DNA from: Nitrospinota bacterium
GTDB lineage: Bacteria; Nitrospirota; Nitrospiria; Nitrospirales; UBA8639
Length of the DNA stretch: 47,341 bases
Assembly: GCA_022572725.1 (NCBI GenBank)
Contig: JACZVJ010000008.1
Coordinates: forward strand, 1-47,341
Reading direction: 5' to 3'
This document shows, piece by piece, positions 33,730 to 47,341 of the stretch. Under the pieces are notes generated by a model that was given only the letters and a program-made list of their open reading frames with translations, did not search any database and was not told the origin of the DNA. Numbering within the stretch: position 1 is the first letter of the stretch; each line of letters opens with the position of its first letter. The position numbers and the translations under genes were made by a program.

Positions 33730-34068
33730 GGGACGGGTTTTCCCTGTTGTAAAAGAAGGAGAGATAGCCGGCTTTATGAATGGGGTCATCAATTAAACAA
33801 TGGCAATTGCGTGATCCCCTACTGAATTGATTGGCCGTCCCCTTCCCAACCATGAGAAGATTCTTGGAATTCCCCGACTGGGAGTTTCCCTGCTCCGATC
33901 CAAAGCCCTGTCGTGCCGCTCTCAGGTGTTTCCACCCTTGCCCTCGCATGGTAAATTGAAGAGCCCGTCCGTTCCATCGAGGAATGGGCTGGGATCGCTC
34001 ACCACTACAGCGGTATTTTGGAATTGAACGGTGAGCAGGCCACCAAAGAAATTCATCCTTTAGGCGCT
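33730..34068. other. Gap of 339 bases
   Basis: It contains an imperfect GGGGTCA...TGATCCCC inverted repeat near 33785-33825 and no supported gene. It precedes the truncated AsmA-like gene and may hold its former promoter. Confidence 0.35.
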
Positions 34069-34569
34069 ATGAGCGATTCCGAAGAGGACCTTCACTTTCC
34101 AGAGGAAATTCAACCTGTCCGAAGGCAAAGGGGCCTGCGATGGCTGGCCATTCTGTGGGGATTTCTACTCTTTTTGGTTTTTTGCCCCACTCTCCTTCTC
34201 ACGTATTGGTTCCCTTCTGAGTTGGTGCGCCCGGAGCTCGAGGCGCAGCTCTCTGAGCTGTTGGAAGGCGTGGTGAGGATTCGGTCTTTATCTTTTAATC
34301 TTTTGACGGGCTTGGAGCTGACTGATGTCGAGTTCACCAGACAGCAAGAACCTTTGGTGAAGTTGGGAGGGCTCACCCTGGATTACAGTCTTTGGGAGTT
34401 GCTCCAACAGCGGCTCAGGGTCAAGGAAGTTCGGATCGAGGGCGTGACCGTATCCTTGAACTTGCCTGGAATCCAAGTCGTGCCGGCACCACCCCGCGTT
34501 TTTTTGTGTTCAGGGCGTTATTTGTACAGAAAAGTACTTTCCTCCTCAATGACCGGACTCGTGAGTTGA
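34069..34569 (+). pseudogene. AsmA/DUF748-like protein, N-terminal fragment
   Basis: From ATG 34069 the frame encodes a cytosolic acidic start, a single membrane segment (WLAILWGFLLFLVFCPTLLL) and the typical AsmA lead-in: LEAQLSELLEGVVRIRSLSF, GLELTDVEF, LTLDYSLWELLQQRLRVKEVRIEGVTVSLNL. In full-length relatives several hundred residues follow. Here the similarity ends near 34480 and the frame runs into unrelated sequence that also encodes the end of the minus-strand DUF11 gene (overlap 34518-34569). It is probably the left part of a gene cut by a rearrangement. The gene may still be expressed as a short membrane protein. Confidence 0.65.
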
Positions 34570-36737
34570 TCCGCATTCATCTCCACTCTAAAACGGGCAT
34601 CCCCCGGCTGGACGGCTCGGATCGTCACCGTGTACGTCAGCTTCTCTTTGGGTGGTAGGCTGGCAATCGGGTCAAAGTTGACTTGCCGTCCCAGTACAAC
34701 CAGCCTTCCAGTTGAGCCGGTGGAGGACTCGTATTTCATCCCCTCGCCCAGGGTGGCTGTCACCTTCAGTTGTGTCGCCGCCGCGGTCCCTTGGTTGGTG
34801 ATCTCAATGGTATAGGTAGTGGTCGTGCCGATTTCCACCGGGTCAGGGCTGTCCGCCACTTCCAGCAAAAGGGCCGTCAGCCCCTTCACGACCGTACAAG
34901 CTTCGGCATTTTCCCGAAGTCCGCGTTCGGTCCTCACGGTCACCACATTGCAGTGACGGCCTTCAGATACTGCGCGCCCCGAAACTAGGAGTGTTCGGGA
35001 TTCTCCTGGATCTACGGACCCGAGATTCCAGGTGATCCCCTTGGTGGTAGAATTATACGTCCCCTCGGGGGTTGAGCCTTCATACCGAATGCCCGCTGGC
35101 AACGTATCATTGACCACCACACCTGTAGCAGAAGCGCTCCCGGGGTTGCTCACCTCTATGGTGTAGGTCGCCGTCGTGCCCAAAAACCGGTTTGGAGGGC
35201 CGCTCTTTTGAATGGCAATGCTGGGTTGTTCAATCACCGTGTCACAGGCCGCTTGGTCAAGCAGGTCATTATCTGCGACCACTTTCGCCGTGTTCGTGAA
35301 CGTGCCTAGTTCATCTGCCACAAAGACAAACGTTTCAGACACAGAGGCACCGGCCTCAAGGATCCCGATTGGACGAGCAATTTCCGGCTGACCCGAGGAA
35401 TGGTGCATGCCGGCTGGCACGGTGTCCGTGATTTGGACACCCCTCGCCTCACCCGTTCCGGTATTCAGCGCGGTGACTGTGAAGGTCAATGTGTCTCCCA
35501 CGATTCCCTTGTTCGGGCACCTCTTCGTTATCGAGAGGACGGGTTCCCCCACCAGGACGGAACAGATCGATTGGGCCTGGGCCCCGTCCTCTGACCTCGC
35601 CTGGGCTTCATTCGTAAAGGTTCCGCTGCGTGCGGGCTTGAGCGCGAAGGAAATGGATTGAGTCGACCCACCCGGGAGGTCTCCCAGATTCCAGATTAAC
35701 GTTTGCCCCTTCATTGTTGCGGGGGGATCCGACCGGATGTACTTGAACCCGGCAGGCAACGGGTTCTGAACGATCACCTTGCTGGCATCAACTTTAGAGG
35801 TATTGCGCACCACAATGTTAAATCGGCCGGTATCCCCGAGGAGAATCGAGGGAGGACATTGCTGGTCGAGGGCGATGGATGGCGCGTCCCACTGAACGGT
35901 GGTAGTCCCCCGTGCGAGAACTCCGCTGACAGGAGGGCAACACTCGGTTCCCGGTTGTTCAGGTTTGACCACCAGCACGTCTACGGTGGTTTCCCCGGCC
36001 TGGGGATTTCTTTGGACCAATGTAACACTGACGGCTCCGTTTTCGTCCGTCTCCGTCAAAACCTCGGTTTGCTCGGTTTCTTCAAAATAAGCGGGTGGAC
36101 CTGAGGTCACGTTCCATTTGACTTGGTACTTCGGCAGAGGCTCTCCGGTGGAGGCCTTTACCACGGTGGTGGTCAGGGTCCGTGCCGTGCCTACCTTTTG
36201 AGCACCATCTGGGGGAAACTCCCATTGGGCGTCCAGCCACTTCATGAGGGCGAAGGCGCTTTTCTTGGATTTCTCTTTAATAGTCGGGACCACGGCAATG
36301 AGATGAGTGGTGCCCTCACGAACCGAGGTGATCGTGATGGTCGCTTCTCCGTTCCGGTCTGCTCCCGAAATCGCAAAAGTATTTGTCATCTTCAGTTCCC
36401 GCATGAGGGGATCTTGGCCAACTTCCACGATGTCACCGACAGCCCCCGTGCTCCGGGCCAATATCCATTCTACCAACGCATTGGAAACGGGCTGGTCTTT
36501 GGCGTCTTTGACAAGGGCTGTGAAAGTCTGCTGGGTTTTGATTGGGGCGGTATGAAGGGCTGGTTCGACTGTGACTGTTGCAGGAGGAGAAGCAGGTTTG
36601 GAAAGGGGTCTGCCGTACTTGGAAACCTGCTCCCCGTACTGGAGGCCAGCGCATCCCCCGGCTCCCATCATTATTCCCGCAAGGAAAAGAAGGAGATGAA
36701 CAACACCAGAGTTCCTACTCGTCTGTGCACTTCTCAT
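34518..36737 (-). CDS. DUF11-repeat envelope protein, probable lipoprotein
   Basis: The start ATG at 36737 follows GCAGGAGGAAATC; an upstream in-frame ATG at 36803 lacks this. The 739-residue product begins with a signal and a marginal lipobox (GAGGC, Cys29). Two Big_1-like Ig domains come next (about 55-140 and 165-260, each ending in an NGEATITIT or ENGAVSVTL strand), then four DUF11 repeats from about residue 285, each with the core TFTVTALNTGTGEARGVQ-type strand, D-x-x-PAG and a TF-TN-A ending. The design resembles chlamydial OmcB and other surface scaffold proteins, but cysteines are fewer. It is probably anchored in the outer membrane. It has no partner genes nearby. Confidence 0.85.
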   Translation of the reverse strand: MRSAQTSRNSGVVHLLLFLAGIMMGAGGCAGLQYGEQVSKYGRPLSKPASPPATVTVEPALHTAPIKTQQTFTALVKDAKDQPVSNALVEWILARSTGAVGDIVEVGQDPLMRELKMTNTFAISGADRNGEATITITSVREGTTHLIAVVPTIKEKSKKSAFALMKWLDAQWEFPPDGAQKVGTARTLTTTVVKASTGEPLPKYQVKWNVTSGPPAYFEETEQTEVLTETDENGAVSVTLVQRNPQAGETTVDVLVVKPEQPGTECCPPVSGVLARGTTTVQWDAPSIALDQQCPPSILLGDTGRFNIVVRNTSKVDASKVIVQNPLPAGFKYIRSDPPATMKGQTLIWNLGDLPGGSTQSISFALKPARSGTFTNEAQARSEDGAQAQSICSVLVGEPVLSITKRCPNKGIVGDTLTFTVTALNTGTGEARGVQITDTVPAGMHHSSGQPEIARPIGILEAGASVSETFVFVADELGTFTNTAKVVADNDLLDQAACDTVIEQPSIAIQKSGPPNRFLGTTATYTIEVSNPGSASATGVVVNDTLPAGIRYEGSTPEGTYNSTTKGITWNLGSVDPGESRTLLVSGRAVSEGRHCNVVTVRTERGLRENAEACTVVKGLTALLLEVADSPDPVEIGTTTTYTIEITNQGTAAATQLKVTATLGEGMKYESSTGSTGRLVVLGRQVNFDPIASLPPKEKLTYTVTIRAVQPGDARFRVEMNADQLTSPVIEEESTFLYK

Positions 36738-37038
36738 GATTTCCTCCTGCTCCGCAACCAAACAAAATGCCCTGTCATCTCCAAAGGGCTCCGAATATAC
36801 CAAGGTTCAGGTGGAAGAAAGCAACCCCGCCATTCGGAGGATTTACGAAAATTCCCCCTCTTTCACCCTGATGCCTCCCACGAAACCCTAGTGTCTTGTA
36901 ATCGGGCCGAATTTTTCCAGGGCCGGCCTCGGTGTGCCTCCAGAGTGAGCGACTGGAAGAACTTTAAACCGGCATGGGAAGTTAGCCCCTGTTCAGGAGC
37001 CATGGCATGGGGAGAATCTTTGCACCAGGACAGACTTT

Positions 37039-41071: not shown

Positions 41072-41539
41072 TCAATACCCAAGCTGGATATCCACTTTCG
41101 TGATAGCTTTGTCAATTCGAAAAGCTGCTTCGGCATGGCCAGGGGGGAGCAAAAATATTTCCGGGCTGTTTGAAACACCGAACCCTTCGATGGGGATACC
41201 AATCCAGTTTTTATCAAATTTTTTATTTCCGTTCTCGTCATGATAAGCGGCAGCGGCATAGACACCCGGCTTAGACACCGCCAAGCAGAACCTTACGATT
41301 CCGTTCAAGGCTGGAGAACGTTTTCGTAAGAGTTTCCTGCCTTTTACCAAGAAGTCGTCCGGATCGGACCCATAAAGGACGACGGTAATATTCCCATCAT
41401 CGCTACGTACGCCATGCACCATGACAGAGATGGCATAAGGTTCCTTATTGCAGCCTCCATCGGTCTCGGCTGCTGAGGCAAACGCATCAGGCATCAAAAG
41501 GGGGATTCCAAAAATTAAGAACCACCGGAGGGTGCGCAT
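41072..41539 (-). CDS. Exported DUF2141 domain protein
   Basis: The 155-residue product has a signal peptide (to about residue 24, DAFASAAE) and the DUF2141 plan: ISVMVHGVRSDDGNITVVLYG, then KPGVYAAAAYHDENGNKKFDKNWIGIPIEGFGVSN and a final strand KVDIQLGY. The DENGNKKFD loop looks like a calcium-binding type turn. The family is periplasmic or outer-membrane associated with unknown role. No partner genes. Confidence 0.88.
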   Translation of the reverse strand: MRTLRWFLIFGIPLLMPDAFASAAETDGGCNKEPYAISVMVHGVRSDDGNITVVLYGSDPDDFLVKGRKLLRKRSPALNGIVRFCLAVSKPGVYAAAAYHDENGNKKFDKNWIGIPIEGFGVSNSPEIFLLPPGHAEAAFRIDKAITKVDIQLGY

Positions 41540-41918: not shown

Positions 41919-43730
41919 TCAACCGGGGGGGGTTCGGGTCGGTTCATCCCCCACATCGCATGGCACCGCTGAGTCTGACACTCCGTCCGCCACCAATGTC
42001 AGAGCACCTTTTTCCAAACGGTACACCCGGTCCGCCGCCTCAACGAGTGCAGGTTGGTGGGAAACGGCCAGGATTGTCATCCCTCCACGAAGCTGCTGGA
42101 GGGTACGGCAGATCGCTACCTCGCTCTCACGATCCAAGGCATTCGTGACTTCGTCCAGAATAAGGAGCCTCGGTCGGTGCACGAGAGCCCTCGCGATCGC
42201 AATTCGTTGGCGCTGCCCTCCAGAGAGAGCAGCCCCTCGTTCCCCCACCGAACTGCGCAAACCCTGATGCCTCTGGGTGACAAAATCCCAGGCACCTGCG
42301 GCGCGCAACGCGGCCTCCGCATCTGCTTCGTTCATTCCTGGATCGCCGAGCGTGACATTATTCAGCACCGTGTCGTGCAGGAGCAACGTCTCCTGGGGTA
42401 CGTAGCCAATCATCCGCCGCCAATGCTTCAGGTCGATCTTCTCAAGGGCCACGCCATCGACCTGTATTTCCCCCTGCTGAGGACACAACAGGCCCGTAAT
42501 TAAGTCTATGATCGTCGTTTTCCCAGCTCCAGAAGGGCCGATGATCGCCACGAAGGAACCAGCTGGAATTGTCAGGGATGCATTCCACAACACCGGGGTC
42601 TTATCGAAGGTGAAGCTGACATGCTCCAGGCAGACGGCTTTGTGCAGTGATGGAAGCAGACCACCTGGTTCACTCTCGCGTGCCTCCCGCGCATCCTGAA
42701 TCGCCCGTTGTAATGACCAGAACGCACTCTCATAGACCCGCATCCTCTGATAGTAACGCTGAGCCTTCGCCAGTAAGCCCAGCAGCCGTGCCAGCAAGAA
42801 GGCCAGGACAGTGACAGCCGCAAAAGGTAGGCCCCATTGCGTCATCGCCAAATAGATCCCAACCGCGATGACTGTCGCCAGTAGAGGCTCCTGCAGGGAG
42901 CCCAAGGCCTCCGTGCTCAATACTTCGCGTCGCAGGGCACGATTGAGTCTGCGGTTCTCCGACTCAAGTACAGTTCCGACCAGTTCTTCCTTTGCCATGG
43001 CCTTGAGTGGTTTCACGGACTGCAAGCTATCCGTGAGGCGGGTCAAGAGAGATTTCAACGATTGGGTTTGACGGACCCCGGCCCGTTGCGCCATACGAAT
43101 AAGAAGATTCAAAGTGTAGAGAAGGGCAGCGCCGGCAGCCAGGGCACCTAGGGCAACCTTCCAGTCGATGATGAGAGCGACTGCGGAGTAGACCATCGCC
43201 TGGGTCAGCACGGCGAAGCCTGCCGTCCCCTGGAGATAGGCGTTGGAGACCCGAATGGCCTCAGTCCCTACGGCGTTGGCCAGACTCCCAACCGGTTGAT
43301 GGAGGTAGTACTCCCACCGCGCCGCAAGCAGGGAGCGCAGGAGCGTCAGACGCAAATCCGTCGTGACGTGTGCGACTGTGTACCCAACCTGGGTCTTGGC
43401 CAGCAGGAGGAAGGCGCCCTTCAGCACCAGGCAGCCCACGATAACCAGCAGCAACGCACCAAGGGTGGGGGTAATACCTAGTGCAACAAGCCCCCCCAAA
43501 AGGGTACTGCCCGTTCCCGAGAGGGGGGTCGCAGCCCCCTGGGAGGACTCCCCAGTCACCGTATTGAGCACAGGGAATAAGAGCGAAAGGCCAATTCCTT
43601 CCACCAGCCCCGCCAAGACCATGGCGAGGAGGGTCATGGCGGTTCGCAAGGGATAGGCCCGGGAGATAGTCAATAGGAATCGCATGTAGGAAGTTGGAAC
43701 CGGCCTTAAGTCGGCCGTTTCCTTTTCCAA
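41919..43730 (-). CDS. MsbA-like ABC exporter (membrane and ATPase domains fused)
   Basis: The 603-residue product has about six membrane segments in residues 25-320 (TLLAMVLAGLVEGIGLSLLF is the first) and an ATPase domain: Walker A GPSGAGKT at 398-405, Q-loop YVPQETLLL, signature ALSGGQRQRIAIARAL, Walker B LLILDEVT (Thr/Asn following, DEVTNALD) and the H-switch SHQPAL. It is a half-size exporter of the lipid or peptide type working as a dimer in the inner membrane. The frame starts at TTG 43730; ATG 43685 is an alternative, neither with a clear ribosome-binding site. It lies 430 bases downstream of the oxoamine-synthase operon on the same strand, so it may export the product lipid, which is inference. 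Confidence 0.9.
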   Translation of the reverse strand: MEKETADLRPVPTSYMRFLLTISRAYPLRTAMTLLAMVLAGLVEGIGLSLLFPVLNTVTGESSQGAATPLSGTGSTLLGGLVALGITPTLGALLLVIVGCLVLKGAFLLLAKTQVGYTVAHVTTDLRLTLLRSLLAARWEYYLHQPVGSLANAVGTEAIRVSNAYLQGTAGFAVLTQAMVYSAVALIIDWKVALGALAAGAALLYTLNLLIRMAQRAGVRQTQSLKSLLTRLTDSLQSVKPLKAMAKEELVGTVLESENRRLNRALRREVLSTEALGSLQEPLLATVIAVGIYLAMTQWGLPFAAVTVLAFLLARLLGLLAKAQRYYQRMRVYESAFWSLQRAIQDAREARESEPGGLLPSLHKAVCLEHVSFTFDKTPVLWNASLTIPAGSFVAIIGPSGAGKTTIIDLITGLLCPQQGEIQVDGVALEKIDLKHWRRMIGYVPQETLLLHDTVLNNVTLGDPGMNEADAEAALRAAGAWDFVTQRHQGLRSSVGERGAALSGGQRQRIAIARALVHRPRLLILDEVTNALDRESEVAICRTLQQLRGGMTILAVSHQPALVEAADRVYRLEKGALTLVADGVSDSAVPCDVGDEPTRTPPG

Positions 43731-44160: not shown

Positions 44161-45360
44161 TCATGCCTCTCGAGAGGTGAACACGGATCCGCTGACGGAG
44201 GAAAATGCCTCACAAATCTGATCAACCTGCTTGGTGGTATGAGCGCCACTGACACTGCAGCGAAGCATGCTATCGCCGTTTGGAGCCGCAGGCGGCAGGA
44301 TCAGGTTCACGTAGACACCGCACTCAAGAAGCCCCATCCAAAACGCGATGGCCTCCTCCTTACTTGAAAGCCTGGCTGCGACGATTGGGCTGACCTCTGG
44401 GCCTAACTTTAACCCTATGCCCTGCAACTGCTCATACAGGCGATGGGCGTTTGCCCACAGTCGGGAGCGCAAGTCAGGGCGCTCCTGGAGGATTTTGAGA
44501 GCAGTACGGGTAGAGGCAACGACCGAGGGAGAAGGTGAGGCAGTAAAGATATACGGACGGCTGATGTAGCGAGTCAGTTCCAACTCAGGGTGATTGCTCA
44601 CGCAAAAGCCTCCCGTCCCTCCAAGACTCTTACTGAAGGTCCCAACAATAAAATCCACCCTCTGCTCAACGCCTGCTTCCTCAGCCAGTCCCCGCCCTCG
44701 TTTGCCAAGGACACCCAAGGAATGCGCCTCATCCAAAAGAAGATAGAAACCGTATTCCCGTTTCAGAGCCGAGATTTCCGCTACCGGCGCACGGTCACCC
44801 AGCATGCTGTAAATTCCCTCGATAATGATCAGGGATTTCGAGGTTTGGTCACCCAATCGTCGAAGTCGCTTGTCCAGATCACCCACATCGTTATGTCGGA
44901 ATCGAATGACTTCAGCCCCGCTTAGCCTGCATCCATCATAGATGCTTGCATGGCAATCGGCATCCAACAAAATGACATCACCCGGCCCTGTAAGAGCTGA
45001 TAGGATTCCAAGGTTGGCCAAATACCCGGTCGAGAACACGACGGCAGATTTTCGCCCGAAAAAGTCCGCCAGCTCGCGCTCTAACGCCATATGACCTGCA
45101 AAAGTGCCATTGGCCATTCTCGATCCAGTAGTCCCGGTGCCCTGTTCTCGGACAGCAGTCAGCGCGGCTTCGATACATTGAGGGTCAAAGGTAAGGCCCA
45201 AGTAGTTGTTAGTGCCGGCAAGTATGGTACGCCGCCCGTTCACCACCGCTTCGGTAGGTGAAATCACACGTTCGACAACAACCTTGAAGGGATCGCCACC
45301 ACCCTCTCCAAGAGCTTTTTGGGCCTCGGCAAGCTGATGGAATTTTCGCAGGAGGGCCAT
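44161..45360 (-). CDS. Alpha-oxoamine synthase, probable serine palmitoyltransferase
   Basis: The 399-residue PLP enzyme has the family motifs GTNNYLGLTFDP, GSRMANGTFAGHMALE, DADCHASIYDG (His137 stacks on PLP), RFRHNDVGDL, IIIEGIYSMLGDRAP, LLLDEAHSLGVLG (Asp210, His213) and the PLP lysine K244 in GTFSKSLGGTGGF. This group includes 8-amino-7-oxononanoate synthase (BioF), KBL, ALAS, CqsA and serine palmitoyltransferase. The RFRHND and EGIYSMLGD pattern and the neighbouring acyl carrier protein, epimerase and acyl ligase favour the bacterial serine palmitoyltransferase; biotin genes are absent here. ATG overlaps the ACP stop by one base (TAATG), so translation is coupled. Confidence 0.82.
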   Translation of the reverse strand: MALLRKFHQLAEAQKALGEGGGDPFKVVVERVISPTEAVVNGRRTILAGTNNYLGLTFDPQCIEAALTAVREQGTGTTGSRMANGTFAGHMALERELADFFGRKSAVVFSTGYLANLGILSALTGPGDVILLDADCHASIYDGCRLSGAEVIRFRHNDVGDLDKRLRRLGDQTSKSLIIIEGIYSMLGDRAPVAEISALKREYGFYLLLDEAHSLGVLGKRGRGLAEEAGVEQRVDFIVGTFSKSLGGTGGFCVSNHPELELTRYISRPYIFTASPSPSVVASTRTALKILQERPDLRSRLWANAHRLYEQLQGIGLKLGPEVSPIVAARLSSKEEAIAFWMGLLECGVYVNLILPPAAPNGDSMLRCSVSGAHTTKQVDQICEAFSSVSGSVFTSREA

Positions 45361-45608
45361 TAGCGTGGAATGGTCAAGTGGTGAATTTGCCCAGCCAAAT
45401 CTCTCACAGTACGGACCTCGGGGAGAATGTTTAACGGAATCGATATATCGAATCGGTCCTCGGCCTCCAGCAGAAGCTGCATGGACTTCATGGAATCAAG
45501 CCCAAGATCTGCAACCAGCTCCGTTTCTTCATGGAGAACCTGACCATCACCCGCGTACGGCTTAAGGACTTCATAAAGCCCAGCAAGGGTATCTTCGTAG
45601 CCCGGCAT
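45360..45608 (-). CDS. Acyl carrier protein
   Basis: An 82-residue carrier protein with the 4'-phosphopantetheine serine at residue 39 in DLGLDSMKSMQLLLEAEDRFDI. The sequence differs from housekeeping AcpP (DSMKS in place of DSLDT/V), which marks a specialised carrier. In the Caulobacter ceramide locus an ACP of this kind feeds acyl chains to serine palmitoyltransferase. ATG follows GGAGAGGG 10 bases upstream; it lies 24 bases after the epimerase gene. Confidence 0.9.
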   Translation of the reverse strand: MPGYEDTLAGLYEVLKPYAGDGQVLHEETELVADLGLDSMKSMQLLLEAEDRFDISIPLNILPEVRTVRDLAGQIHHLTIPR

Positions 45609-45632
45609 TAAACAAAAACCCTCTCCATACCG

Positions 45633-46610
45633 TTATCCCTGAGCCAAAGCGGAGCCAGCGATGGCTGGCCCCAAACCTAGAGTGCGTCGCAAACCCTCTT
45701 CCAGGGAAAGCTGAGGAACCCAGCCGGTCGCACGGTAAAATTCATCATTGTCGCATACCCAGTTGGGATGCTGCAGTTCCCGAACCTTCCCTGGCGTGAG
45801 CATCGGAGCGTATCGGAACACCCGAGATAGCAGGGTGTTGGCCTTTGCCAGCAGATCGAGCACAGGGACAGGGACTCTTGCATGGAGCACCCTTCTTTCG
45901 CGCACCTGAGCGACGGTGTTAGCGACTTCACCCCAAGTATACCCATTTGGGTGTCCGTCGTGCAGTTCAAATGTCTGCCCGGCGAACACCCCACCTTTCA
46001 GACATCGCAGGACAGCATCGGCTAGGTCCTCGACATGTAGCAATGAGAACCGCATATTGGGTGGTCCTAAGATTAGAGCCACACCTCTTCCCATCCAGCC
46101 AAACAAGCTATCCAACGCCCGATTCCCGAGGCCATACACTGCCGGCGGCCGTAATATCGTCCAACCCATGCCAGCTGCCCCAGACGCGAGTGCCATCTCA
46201 CCTTGACGTTTACTGGAGGCATAGGGAGAAATATCTGGTTCACGCGCCGCCAAGGAAGAGATCAACAAGAAACGCGGCAAGGGCTTTTGCTTGGCAGCAA
46301 CTTGAGCCAGCCTCGCCACCCCACCAACGTTCACACGAATGAAATCGGCCTTAGAGGATGCTTGAACGAGACCTGCACAGTGGATCACGATGTCCACACC
46401 AGCGATGAGTCGACAGAGGCTTTCGCTGTCCTCTAGGGTCCCGTCTATCCACTCCGCCGCTAGGCTATCTTTACGGGCTTTTGAGGACGCTGGACGCACG
46501 AGTGCCCGAACACGCCACCCTTCAGCCGAAAGTCGGCGTGCCAGCACGCTTCCGATAAACCCTGTTACCCCGGTTAAAGCAACGGTGCCGGTCATCGACT
46601 CAAGAGCCAT
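45633..46610 (-). CDS. NAD-dependent epimerase/dehydratase-type reductase, CerR-like
   Basis: The 325-residue extended short-chain dehydrogenase has the Rossmann motif GVTGFIG (14-20), Ser118/119, Tyr130 and Lys134 (SPYASSKRQGE) and the substrate-domain segment RPPAVYGLGNRALDSLFGW. In the Caulobacter sphingolipid module a protein of this class (CerR) reduces the 3-keto group; sugar epimerase activity is the other possibility. ATG 46610 is 6 bases after the ligase stop; ATG 46595 is an alternative. Confidence 0.85.
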   Translation of the reverse strand: MALESMTGTVALTGVTGFIGSVLARRLSAEGWRVRALVRPASSKARKDSLAAEWIDGTLEDSESLCRLIAGVDIVIHCAGLVQASSKADFIRVNVGGVARLAQVAAKQKPLPRFLLISSLAAREPDISPYASSKRQGEMALASGAAGMGWTILRPPAVYGLGNRALDSLFGWMGRGVALILGPPNMRFSLLHVEDLADAVLRCLKGGVFAGQTFELHDGHPNGYTWGEVANTVAQVRERRVLHARVPVPVLDLLAKANTLLSRVFRYAPMLTPGKVRELQHPNWVCDNDEFYRATGWVPQLSLEEGLRRTLGLGPAIAGSALAQG

Positions 46611-46616
46611 TAGCCA

Positions 46617-47341
46617 TCAAGCCATGTTCGCTGAATGGCTATCTCTTGATACAATGACGGTCTGAGCCAGATCTTGCCAATCGACCCGGTTCAGAAAATC
46701 CTCCCGTGACTTCGAGCGCGAAAGTTTTCCGGAAGAGGTCCGTGGCAAGGTACGAGGCGGGACTAACTCGATCACACAGTCAACGCCAAGGTCTCGGCGT
46801 ATCAGACTCTGTAAGCACTCTATGAGGTCGGCGCGCTTGATGGAATCAGACTCTCGGCTCTGGACAACCATGACCGCAAAATCCTCTTCATTCGGGCCTG
46901 CCACAGAGAACGCACACGCGTCACCAGGCCGCACCTCGGCCACCAGTTCAGCTAAATCCTCGAGGTCCTGCGGCCAAATGTTCCGACCGTTAATGATGAT
47001 CAAGTCTTTCTTTCTACCAGTAACCACGATGTGGTCCTGGATCTGATAACCAACATCTCCGGTATCGAGCCATCCTTCCGGAGAGAGGACCTTCTCGGTT
47101 TCCAACGGATCCGAGAAATACCCAGGCATGACACTTGATCCCCTCACGTAGATCGTACCGCAGTGCCGATCCGGCAGTTCGCGCCCCTCACCATCCCGAA
47201 TCACCACCGCGACGTTCGGGAGGGGCTTCCCACATTTAATAAATGTGGTGGTGTGCTCTTCCCCCCCAATGCTGCATTCACTGCCTAATGGCAGGGCTTC
47301 CTCGTTCATAGCAAGGTGGCTTTTATTCACGCGATCTGCCT
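46617..47341 (-). CDS. AMP-dependent fatty acyl ligase, C-terminal part (5' end outside window)
   Basis: The frame is open to the window edge, so the N-terminal part is missing. Visible are GTIYVRGSSVMPGYF, GWLDTGDVGY (Asp of the ribose contact), the hinge VTGRKKDLIIINGRNIWPQ and the C-terminal lysine in PRTSSGKLSRSK. The NIWPQDLED segment resembles FAAL and acyl-ACP synthetase proteins. It would activate a fatty acid and load the adjacent acyl carrier protein. It is the first gene seen of the operon. Confidence 0.9.
   Translation of the reverse strand, partial: ADRVNKSHLAMNEEALPLGSECSIGGEEHTTTFIKCGKPLPNVAVVIRDGEGRELPDRHCGTIYVRGSSVMPGYFSDPLETEKVLSPEGWLDTGDVGYQIQDHIVVTGRKKDLIIINGRNIWPQDLEDLAELVAEVRPGDACAFSVAGPNEEDFAVMVVQSRESDSIKRADLIECLQSLIRRDLGVDCVIELVPPRTLPRTSSGKLSRSKSREDFLNRVDWQDLAQTVIVSRDSHSANMA

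Follow-up and report, generated by a model that had tools for sequence, protein, structure and literature searches.

Can a nitrite-oxidizing relative of Nitrospira make sphingolipids? The question is raised by 4 minus-strand genes at the right end of contig C121 of a Nitrospiraceae genome (3.17 Mb, 221 contigs, 98.96% complete); the entire contig, 47,341 bp, is the window analyzed here. They correspond to 4 of the 5 genes that bacteria are known to use for ceramide, on which sphingolipids are built. These genes are transcribed in the order aasR, cerR, acpR, spt, with gaps of only 6 bp between aasR and cerR and 24 bp between cerR and acpR, while the acpR stop and the spt start have one base in common (TAATG). 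Because the window is the whole contig and position 47341 is its end, the loss of the 5′ portion of aasR (~367 codons) is attributed to the assembly. It is very probable, judging from these sequences, that the window holds the first half of a sphingolipid pathway of the type known from Caulobacter and Escherichia coli BL21, with the completing genes on a second contig of the same genome, C193. Together, the 2 contigs make a strong case that a nitrite oxidizer of the Nitrospiraceae has the full (phospho)sphingolipid gene set of the Caulobacter type, its chemistry predicted. We favor sphingolipid synthesis because the gene order and overlap are those of BL21, because the genome also holds a bacterial ceramide synthase (bCerS), LptF/LptG, and genes of the type used for ceramide phosphoglycerate (CPG), because spt and bCerS co-occur across genomes, and because BioF is encoded separately.

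Table 1. Coordinates of the pathway genes and their neighbors (positions in the window unless a contig is given).
Feature	Position	Strand	Basis
spt, serine palmitoyltransferase, 399 aa	44161..45360	-	NF047599, structure matches, tree, residues
acpR, specialized acyl carrier protein, 82 aa	45360..45608	-	PF00550 40.8 bits, phosphopantetheine motif DLGLDSMK
cerR, NAD-dependent epimerase/reductase (ceramide or 3-oxo-sphinganine reductase), 325 aa	45633..46610	-	PF01370 96.9 bits
aasR 3′ part, fatty acyl-AMP ligase / acyl-AcpR synthetase, final 240 codons	46617..47341	-	NF006624 257 bits
ABC exporter, fused transmembrane and ATPase domains, 603 aa, next gene behind spt	41919..43730	-	PF00005/PF00664
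DUF2141 protein, 155 aa, possible accessory cluster gene	41072..41539	-	PF09912 98.3 bits
bCerS	C193:759-1916		48% to BL21 YghO

The synthase is, on a curated model and its phylogenetic clade, a bacterial serine palmitoyltransferase (Spt), a reading to which the closest solved structures and the catalytic residues also lead us. It passed the NCBI equivalog model NF047599 (SerpalmtaseBetaP) by scoring 634.6 bits where 500 are required, whereas the models for bioF (336 bits, cut-off 426.45), for CqsA-type autoinducer synthases (200 bits, cut-off 428), for glycine C-acetyltransferase (KBL), and for 5-aminolevulinate synthase (ALAS) all remained below their cut-offs. The top solved structures were the serine palmitoyltransferases 2x8u (459 bits) and 2jg2 (438 bits), compared with 218 bits for the best 2-amino-3-ketobutyrate ligase. 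In an IQ-TREE phylogeny of 62 sequences that compared BioF, KBL, and ALAS (CqsA being judged by its model cut-off), the synthase grouped with both of these structures, the E. coli BL21 Spt, and alphaproteobacterial Spts with support of 100/100, apart from the other 3 families. Its stacking histidine H137, the Asp/His pair D210 and H213, the pyridoxal phosphate lysine K244, and the carboxylate-binding arginine R367 correspond to H159, D231, H234, K265, and R390 of the Sphingomonas paucimobilis enzyme.

The operon as a whole has a counterpart in E. coli BL21(DE3), where ECD_02851-02854 show the identical order aasR-cerR-acpR-spt and the identical one-base overlap of acpR and spt, with identities to the window proteins of 42% for the AasR part, 44% for CerR, 43% for AcpR, and 55% for Spt. 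ECD_02850 (yghO) is the bCerS ortholog, and LptF/LptG homologs occur in both BL21 and the host genome; the BL21 stretch examined, in contrast, showed no DAGK, CDP-alcohol, or Tam41-like genes, homologs of which lie on C193. In E. coli, the AasR/AcpR/Spt trio yields 3-oxo-sphinganine (PMC9386255). The AasR fragment in the window is 54% identical to the full-length AasR of a relative, matching positions 368-594 of 606, and the NF006624 match spans the C-terminal part of the enzyme. No housekeeping acyl carrier protein (ACP) model was passed by AcpR. Among 88 related loci, the AasR, CerR, and AcpR families flank spt in 73, 78, and 63 cases, respectively, and since they recur beside it in most loci, the gene order is far beyond chance. 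The partial aasR, acpR, spt, and cerR occur together here as in the rhodobacterial-type ceramide pathway. Scans of the locus for promoters and terminators gave matches no more numerous than in shuffled sequence.

A sequence-only reading of this DNA had proposed a probable sphingolipid operon from the 4 gene classes and their overlap, all of which were confirmed in place, and had likened them to the Caulobacter core of acyl-ACP synthetase, CerR, ACP, and Spt. It had also remarked that bCerS is not in the window, and this holds, as the contig ends first; the gene was found instead elsewhere in the same genome. A query with the N-acyltransferase that adjoins spt in relatives returned a single match in the host genome, C193:780-1910, 57% identical to the relatives' protein. 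This bCerS is 43% identical to a Roseomonas-cluster protein and 41% identical to a Sphingomonas-cluster protein, and its BL21 counterpart YghO has been named as the acyltransferase ortholog (PMC9386255).

C193 (locus L151; 10,763 bp) also encodes an NTP transferase, a phosphocholine-cytidylyltransferase-like protein, LptF, LptG, a metallophosphoesterase, a CDP-alcohol phosphotransferase, a DAGK-family lipid kinase, and a Tam41-like protein. The CPG-type domains over cut-off are PF00781, PF01066, PF12804 (two), and PF00149, with the Tam41 domain at 22.6 bits falling slightly below its cut-off of 24. By domain and description, these genes fit Caulobacter CC_1153, 1152, 1155/1156, 1158, 1159, 1160, and 1161, of which CC_1160 is a proven ceramide kinase; the 6 non-transport genes of that set contribute to CPG2 synthesis (PMC11324152). 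At the left end of C193, a small HIT-like gene is cut short after its first 36 codons (the label comes from Roseomonas annotation; Pfam found no domain). This piece is 71-78% identical to the copies in relatives, where the gene sits between bCerS and aasR. Because of this fragment at the contig edge and the gene layout of relatives, our analysis suggests that C193 adjoins the right end of C121 across a gap of ~1.6 kb, which would contain the remainder of the HIT-like gene, a spacer, and the first ~367 aasR codons. The missing aasR portion was not found anywhere else in the assembly.

The set is therefore larger than the 4 core genes correctly recognized in the sequence-only reading, as it takes in the CPG-type genes on C193 as well as the ABC exporter and the DUF2141 gene downstream of spt. 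Compared by domain, Caulobacter crescentus CC_1168-CC_1152 (PMC11324152) contains homologs of aasR, cerR, acpR, spt, cerS, 6 CPG/CPG2 genes, and LptF2/LptG2, whereas the host set is divided over 2 contigs and has an ABC exporter behind spt and a DUF2141 gene. The plasmid cluster of Roseomonas haemaphysalidis (L159) matches all C193 non-transport genes, including each of the 6 CPG-type genes, at 33-50% identity, Spt at 53%, DUF2141 at 46%, and LptF/LptG weakly, but it is alphaproteobacterial, has another gene order, and lacks an ABC exporter in the stretch examined. DUF2141 genes lie inside 2 Roseomonas clusters and in the Methylomirabilota locus L046. Other Nitrospiraceae (e.g., L126, L131, and L135) have the same aasR-cerR-acpR-spt core by bCerS, NTP transferases, and LptF/LptG, but their fatty acid hydroxylase is intact and their spt is often followed by nonulosonic-acid genes, where the host has a hydroxylase remnant and the ABC exporter.

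From these genes, a pathway can be proposed in which AasR would spend ATP to put a free fatty acid on AcpR, and Spt would join acyl-AcpR with L-serine to form 3-oxo-sphinganine. CerR, bCerS, and the CPG genes are needed in Caulobacter (CPG2 gene set in PMC11324152), and acylation has been argued to run ahead of reduction (PMC11087976). The ceramide kinase, Tam41-like cytidylyltransferase, CDP-alcohol transferase, 2 NTP transferases, and phosphoesterase of C193 would then lead to a CPG-like lipid, which LptF2/LptG2 would help to transport to the outer membrane; its passage over the inner membrane may be the task of the ABC exporter encoded behind spt.

Several points weigh against this assignment. 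The enzyme activities, the chemistry in the organism, and the CPG-like product are predicted; the join of C193 to C121 is itself inferred, and aasR is incomplete in the assembly. The likeness to Caulobacter was judged by domain, with BL21, Roseomonas, and Sphingomonas proteins compared in its stead. The fatty acid hydroxylase by bCerS, intact in relatives (PF04116), is only a remnant in the host genome (C193/L151 480-666), where ~30 residues at the start, following position 42, and the final ~32 survive in different frames and the middle ~170 are gone, so that one or more tailoring genes have decayed. Finally, Arg378 of S. paucimobilis SPT is replaced by Leu355 in the window Spt, raising the alternative that the enzyme takes alanine, glycine, or another amino acid and leads to 1-deoxy-sphingolipids or another long-chain amino lipid; PMC11334938 does describe Spt as able to accept alanine and suggests further amino acids. 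We consider this unlikely, as leucine also occupies this position in the BL21 Spt, which is active with labeled serine (PMC9386255). The remaining active-site positions all agree with SPT as well. Deoxy bases also lack the 1-hydroxyl that CPG-type enzymes such as those encoded on C193 require. That the synthase is instead BioF-, KBL-, or CqsA-like, with the operon making biotin precursors or an alpha-hydroxyketone-type signal, is scarcely credible: the common alpha-oxoamine synthase fold brings BioF-like models up to 336 bits, yet these models fall below the curated cut-offs while the Spt model passes, the tree rules out all of these identities but CqsA, and the genome holds bCerS, CPG-type genes, and a separate true BioF on C59 (495.8 bits to the bioF model). 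The sequence-only reading had kept a BioF- or CqsA-like product as its alternative and called for a phylogeny; the synthase falls in the Spt clade rather than inside BioF, no biotin genes stand beside the operon, and on sequence grounds that alternative can be dropped. A sulfonolipid (cysteate) synthase was also rejected, the solved cysteate acyltransferase scoring 193 bits against 459 for SPT.

A different objection concerns the contig, which could be mis-binned or recently imported and so uninformative about Nitrospiraceae. The assembly is in 221 pieces, the window Spt forms a group (98/93) with sequences from Methylomirabilota and from one Nitrospirota metagenome-assembled genome, and the best matches of the ABC exporter and DUF2141 protein are found there too. 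We regard foreign origin in this sense as very improbable, since infB on C121 is 68% identical to that of G018 (Nitrospiraceae) versus 58-59% to Methylomirabilota, which places C121 in the genome; in addition, the HIT-like gene piece on C193 shares 71-78% identity with Nitrospiraceae copies, the hydroxylase remnant lies where those genomes hold the intact gene, and relatives assembled in few contigs (G020 and G029) have the same cluster. For the ancestry of the sphingolipid genes, the tree suggests horizontal gain from Methylomirabilota, but the approximately unbiased test did not reject a single Nitrospiraceae Spt clade (p 0.125). Computable routes to refutation left the sphingolipid reading of the operon standing.

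These genes are not confined to one genome. Counting spt when over the model cut-off, a survey of 49 genomes of the family found spt in 25 and bCerS in 26; the two occurred together in 24 genomes, and 22 had neither (Fisher p = 1.2e-10, ignoring kinship of genomes). The 2 genes were restricted to genera g1, g6, g7, g8, and g10. A wider scan of the genome collection placed close relatives in Nitrospirota, Methylomirabilota, Thermodesulfobacteriota, Gammaproteobacteria, Acidobacteriota, and others. The host is a probable nitrite-oxidizing relative of Nitrospira, as the sequence-only reading had labeled it, a label supported by a full-length homolog of NxrA (nitrite oxidoreductase subunit A; 1556 bits to 7b04).

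The ABC exporter may carry sphingolipid as its cargo, making it a candidate flippase. In 25 of 89 cases, the gene that immediately follows spt, and on its strand, belongs to the exporter's family; a Wzx-like (PF01943) protein takes its place in 8 of 88 loci, and no locus has both. A Polysacc_synt-type (Wzx-like) protein also occurs near the clusters of BL21, where the host has the ABC exporter, and of Roseomonas mucosa. The exporter did not pass the MsbA model TIGR02203 (236 bits, cut-off 602). As the genome encodes a true MsbA elsewhere (C205, 634.7 bits) and LpxC, it is probably not the lipopolysaccharide (LPS) flippase; the MsbA rules it out as the sole MsbA, and LpxC rules out a sphingolipid replacing LPS. 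We tentatively suggest, as a real possibility rather than the expected outcome, that the exporter is a dedicated inner-membrane ceramide or ceramide-phosphate flippase in the place of the Wzx-like protein and that this nitrite oxidizer makes CPG-type lipids beside ordinary LPS. As of 2024, the bacterial sphingolipid flippase was reported as not yet identified (PMC11087976), and the locus supplies a concrete candidate.

The pathway itself is already known, and what is of interest is the organism that has it, how complete the set is, and the exporter. The sequence-only reading had called a sphingolipid-making nitrite oxidizer notable, and open-access titles and abstracts combining Nitrospira or Nitrospirota/Nitrospirae with sphingolipid, ceramide, or serine palmitoyltransferase contained no such pathway in Nitrospira; the novelty is nonetheless lower than it assumed, because the synthase would already get its name from an NCBI model and PMC11334938 reports Spt-like proteins from 40 phyla. 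If ceramides are made by about half of the Nitrospiraceae whose genomes were sampled, the outer membrane of these bacteria and their response to polymyxin-type peptides and phages would need reappraisal. The Nitrospiraceae lipid trace in sediments would likewise have to be reconsidered, and one more abundant environmental source of sphingolipids would be added, Nitrospira-type bacteria being major nitrite oxidizers of soils, waters, and treatment plants.

Other loci vary around spt. NeuB- and NeuA-like nonulosonic-acid genes lie shortly behind it in 25 and 23 of 88 loci from several phyla (L126, L129, L131, L133, and L138-L142 in Nitrospiraceae; L049, L050, L058, L062, L072, L082, L087, and L097), which hints that sphingolipids are decorated with a sialic-acid-like sugar there. 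This does not extend to the window locus, as the host NeuB genes are on C60 and C46 and none is beside spt. In Nitrospiraceae, a protein of ~811 residues is encoded directly behind spt (L134 11088-13550; orthologs in L126, L128, L129, L131-L133, and L138-L142), whose sole Pfam domain, Mito_fiss_Elm1 (PF06258), lies in the C-terminal half, and the R. mucosa cluster contains an ELM1/GtrOC1 putative glycosyltransferase. In 2 Nitrospiraceae loci (L053 13964-15142; L056), another alpha-oxoamine synthase is encoded within a few genes of spt, and it groups with the host BioF (99/94), not with Spt. In L142 (G028:C1:65000-84900), from a single-contig relative, spt is in pieces of 254 and 172 residues, so that the gene is either broken or split by a frameshift error. 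Elsewhere in the window, 34521-36803 on the minus strand encodes a 761-residue protein with DUF11-type repeats, and this gene overlaps by ~50 bases a convergent, weakly GspN-like open reading frame at 34018-34569 on the plus strand.

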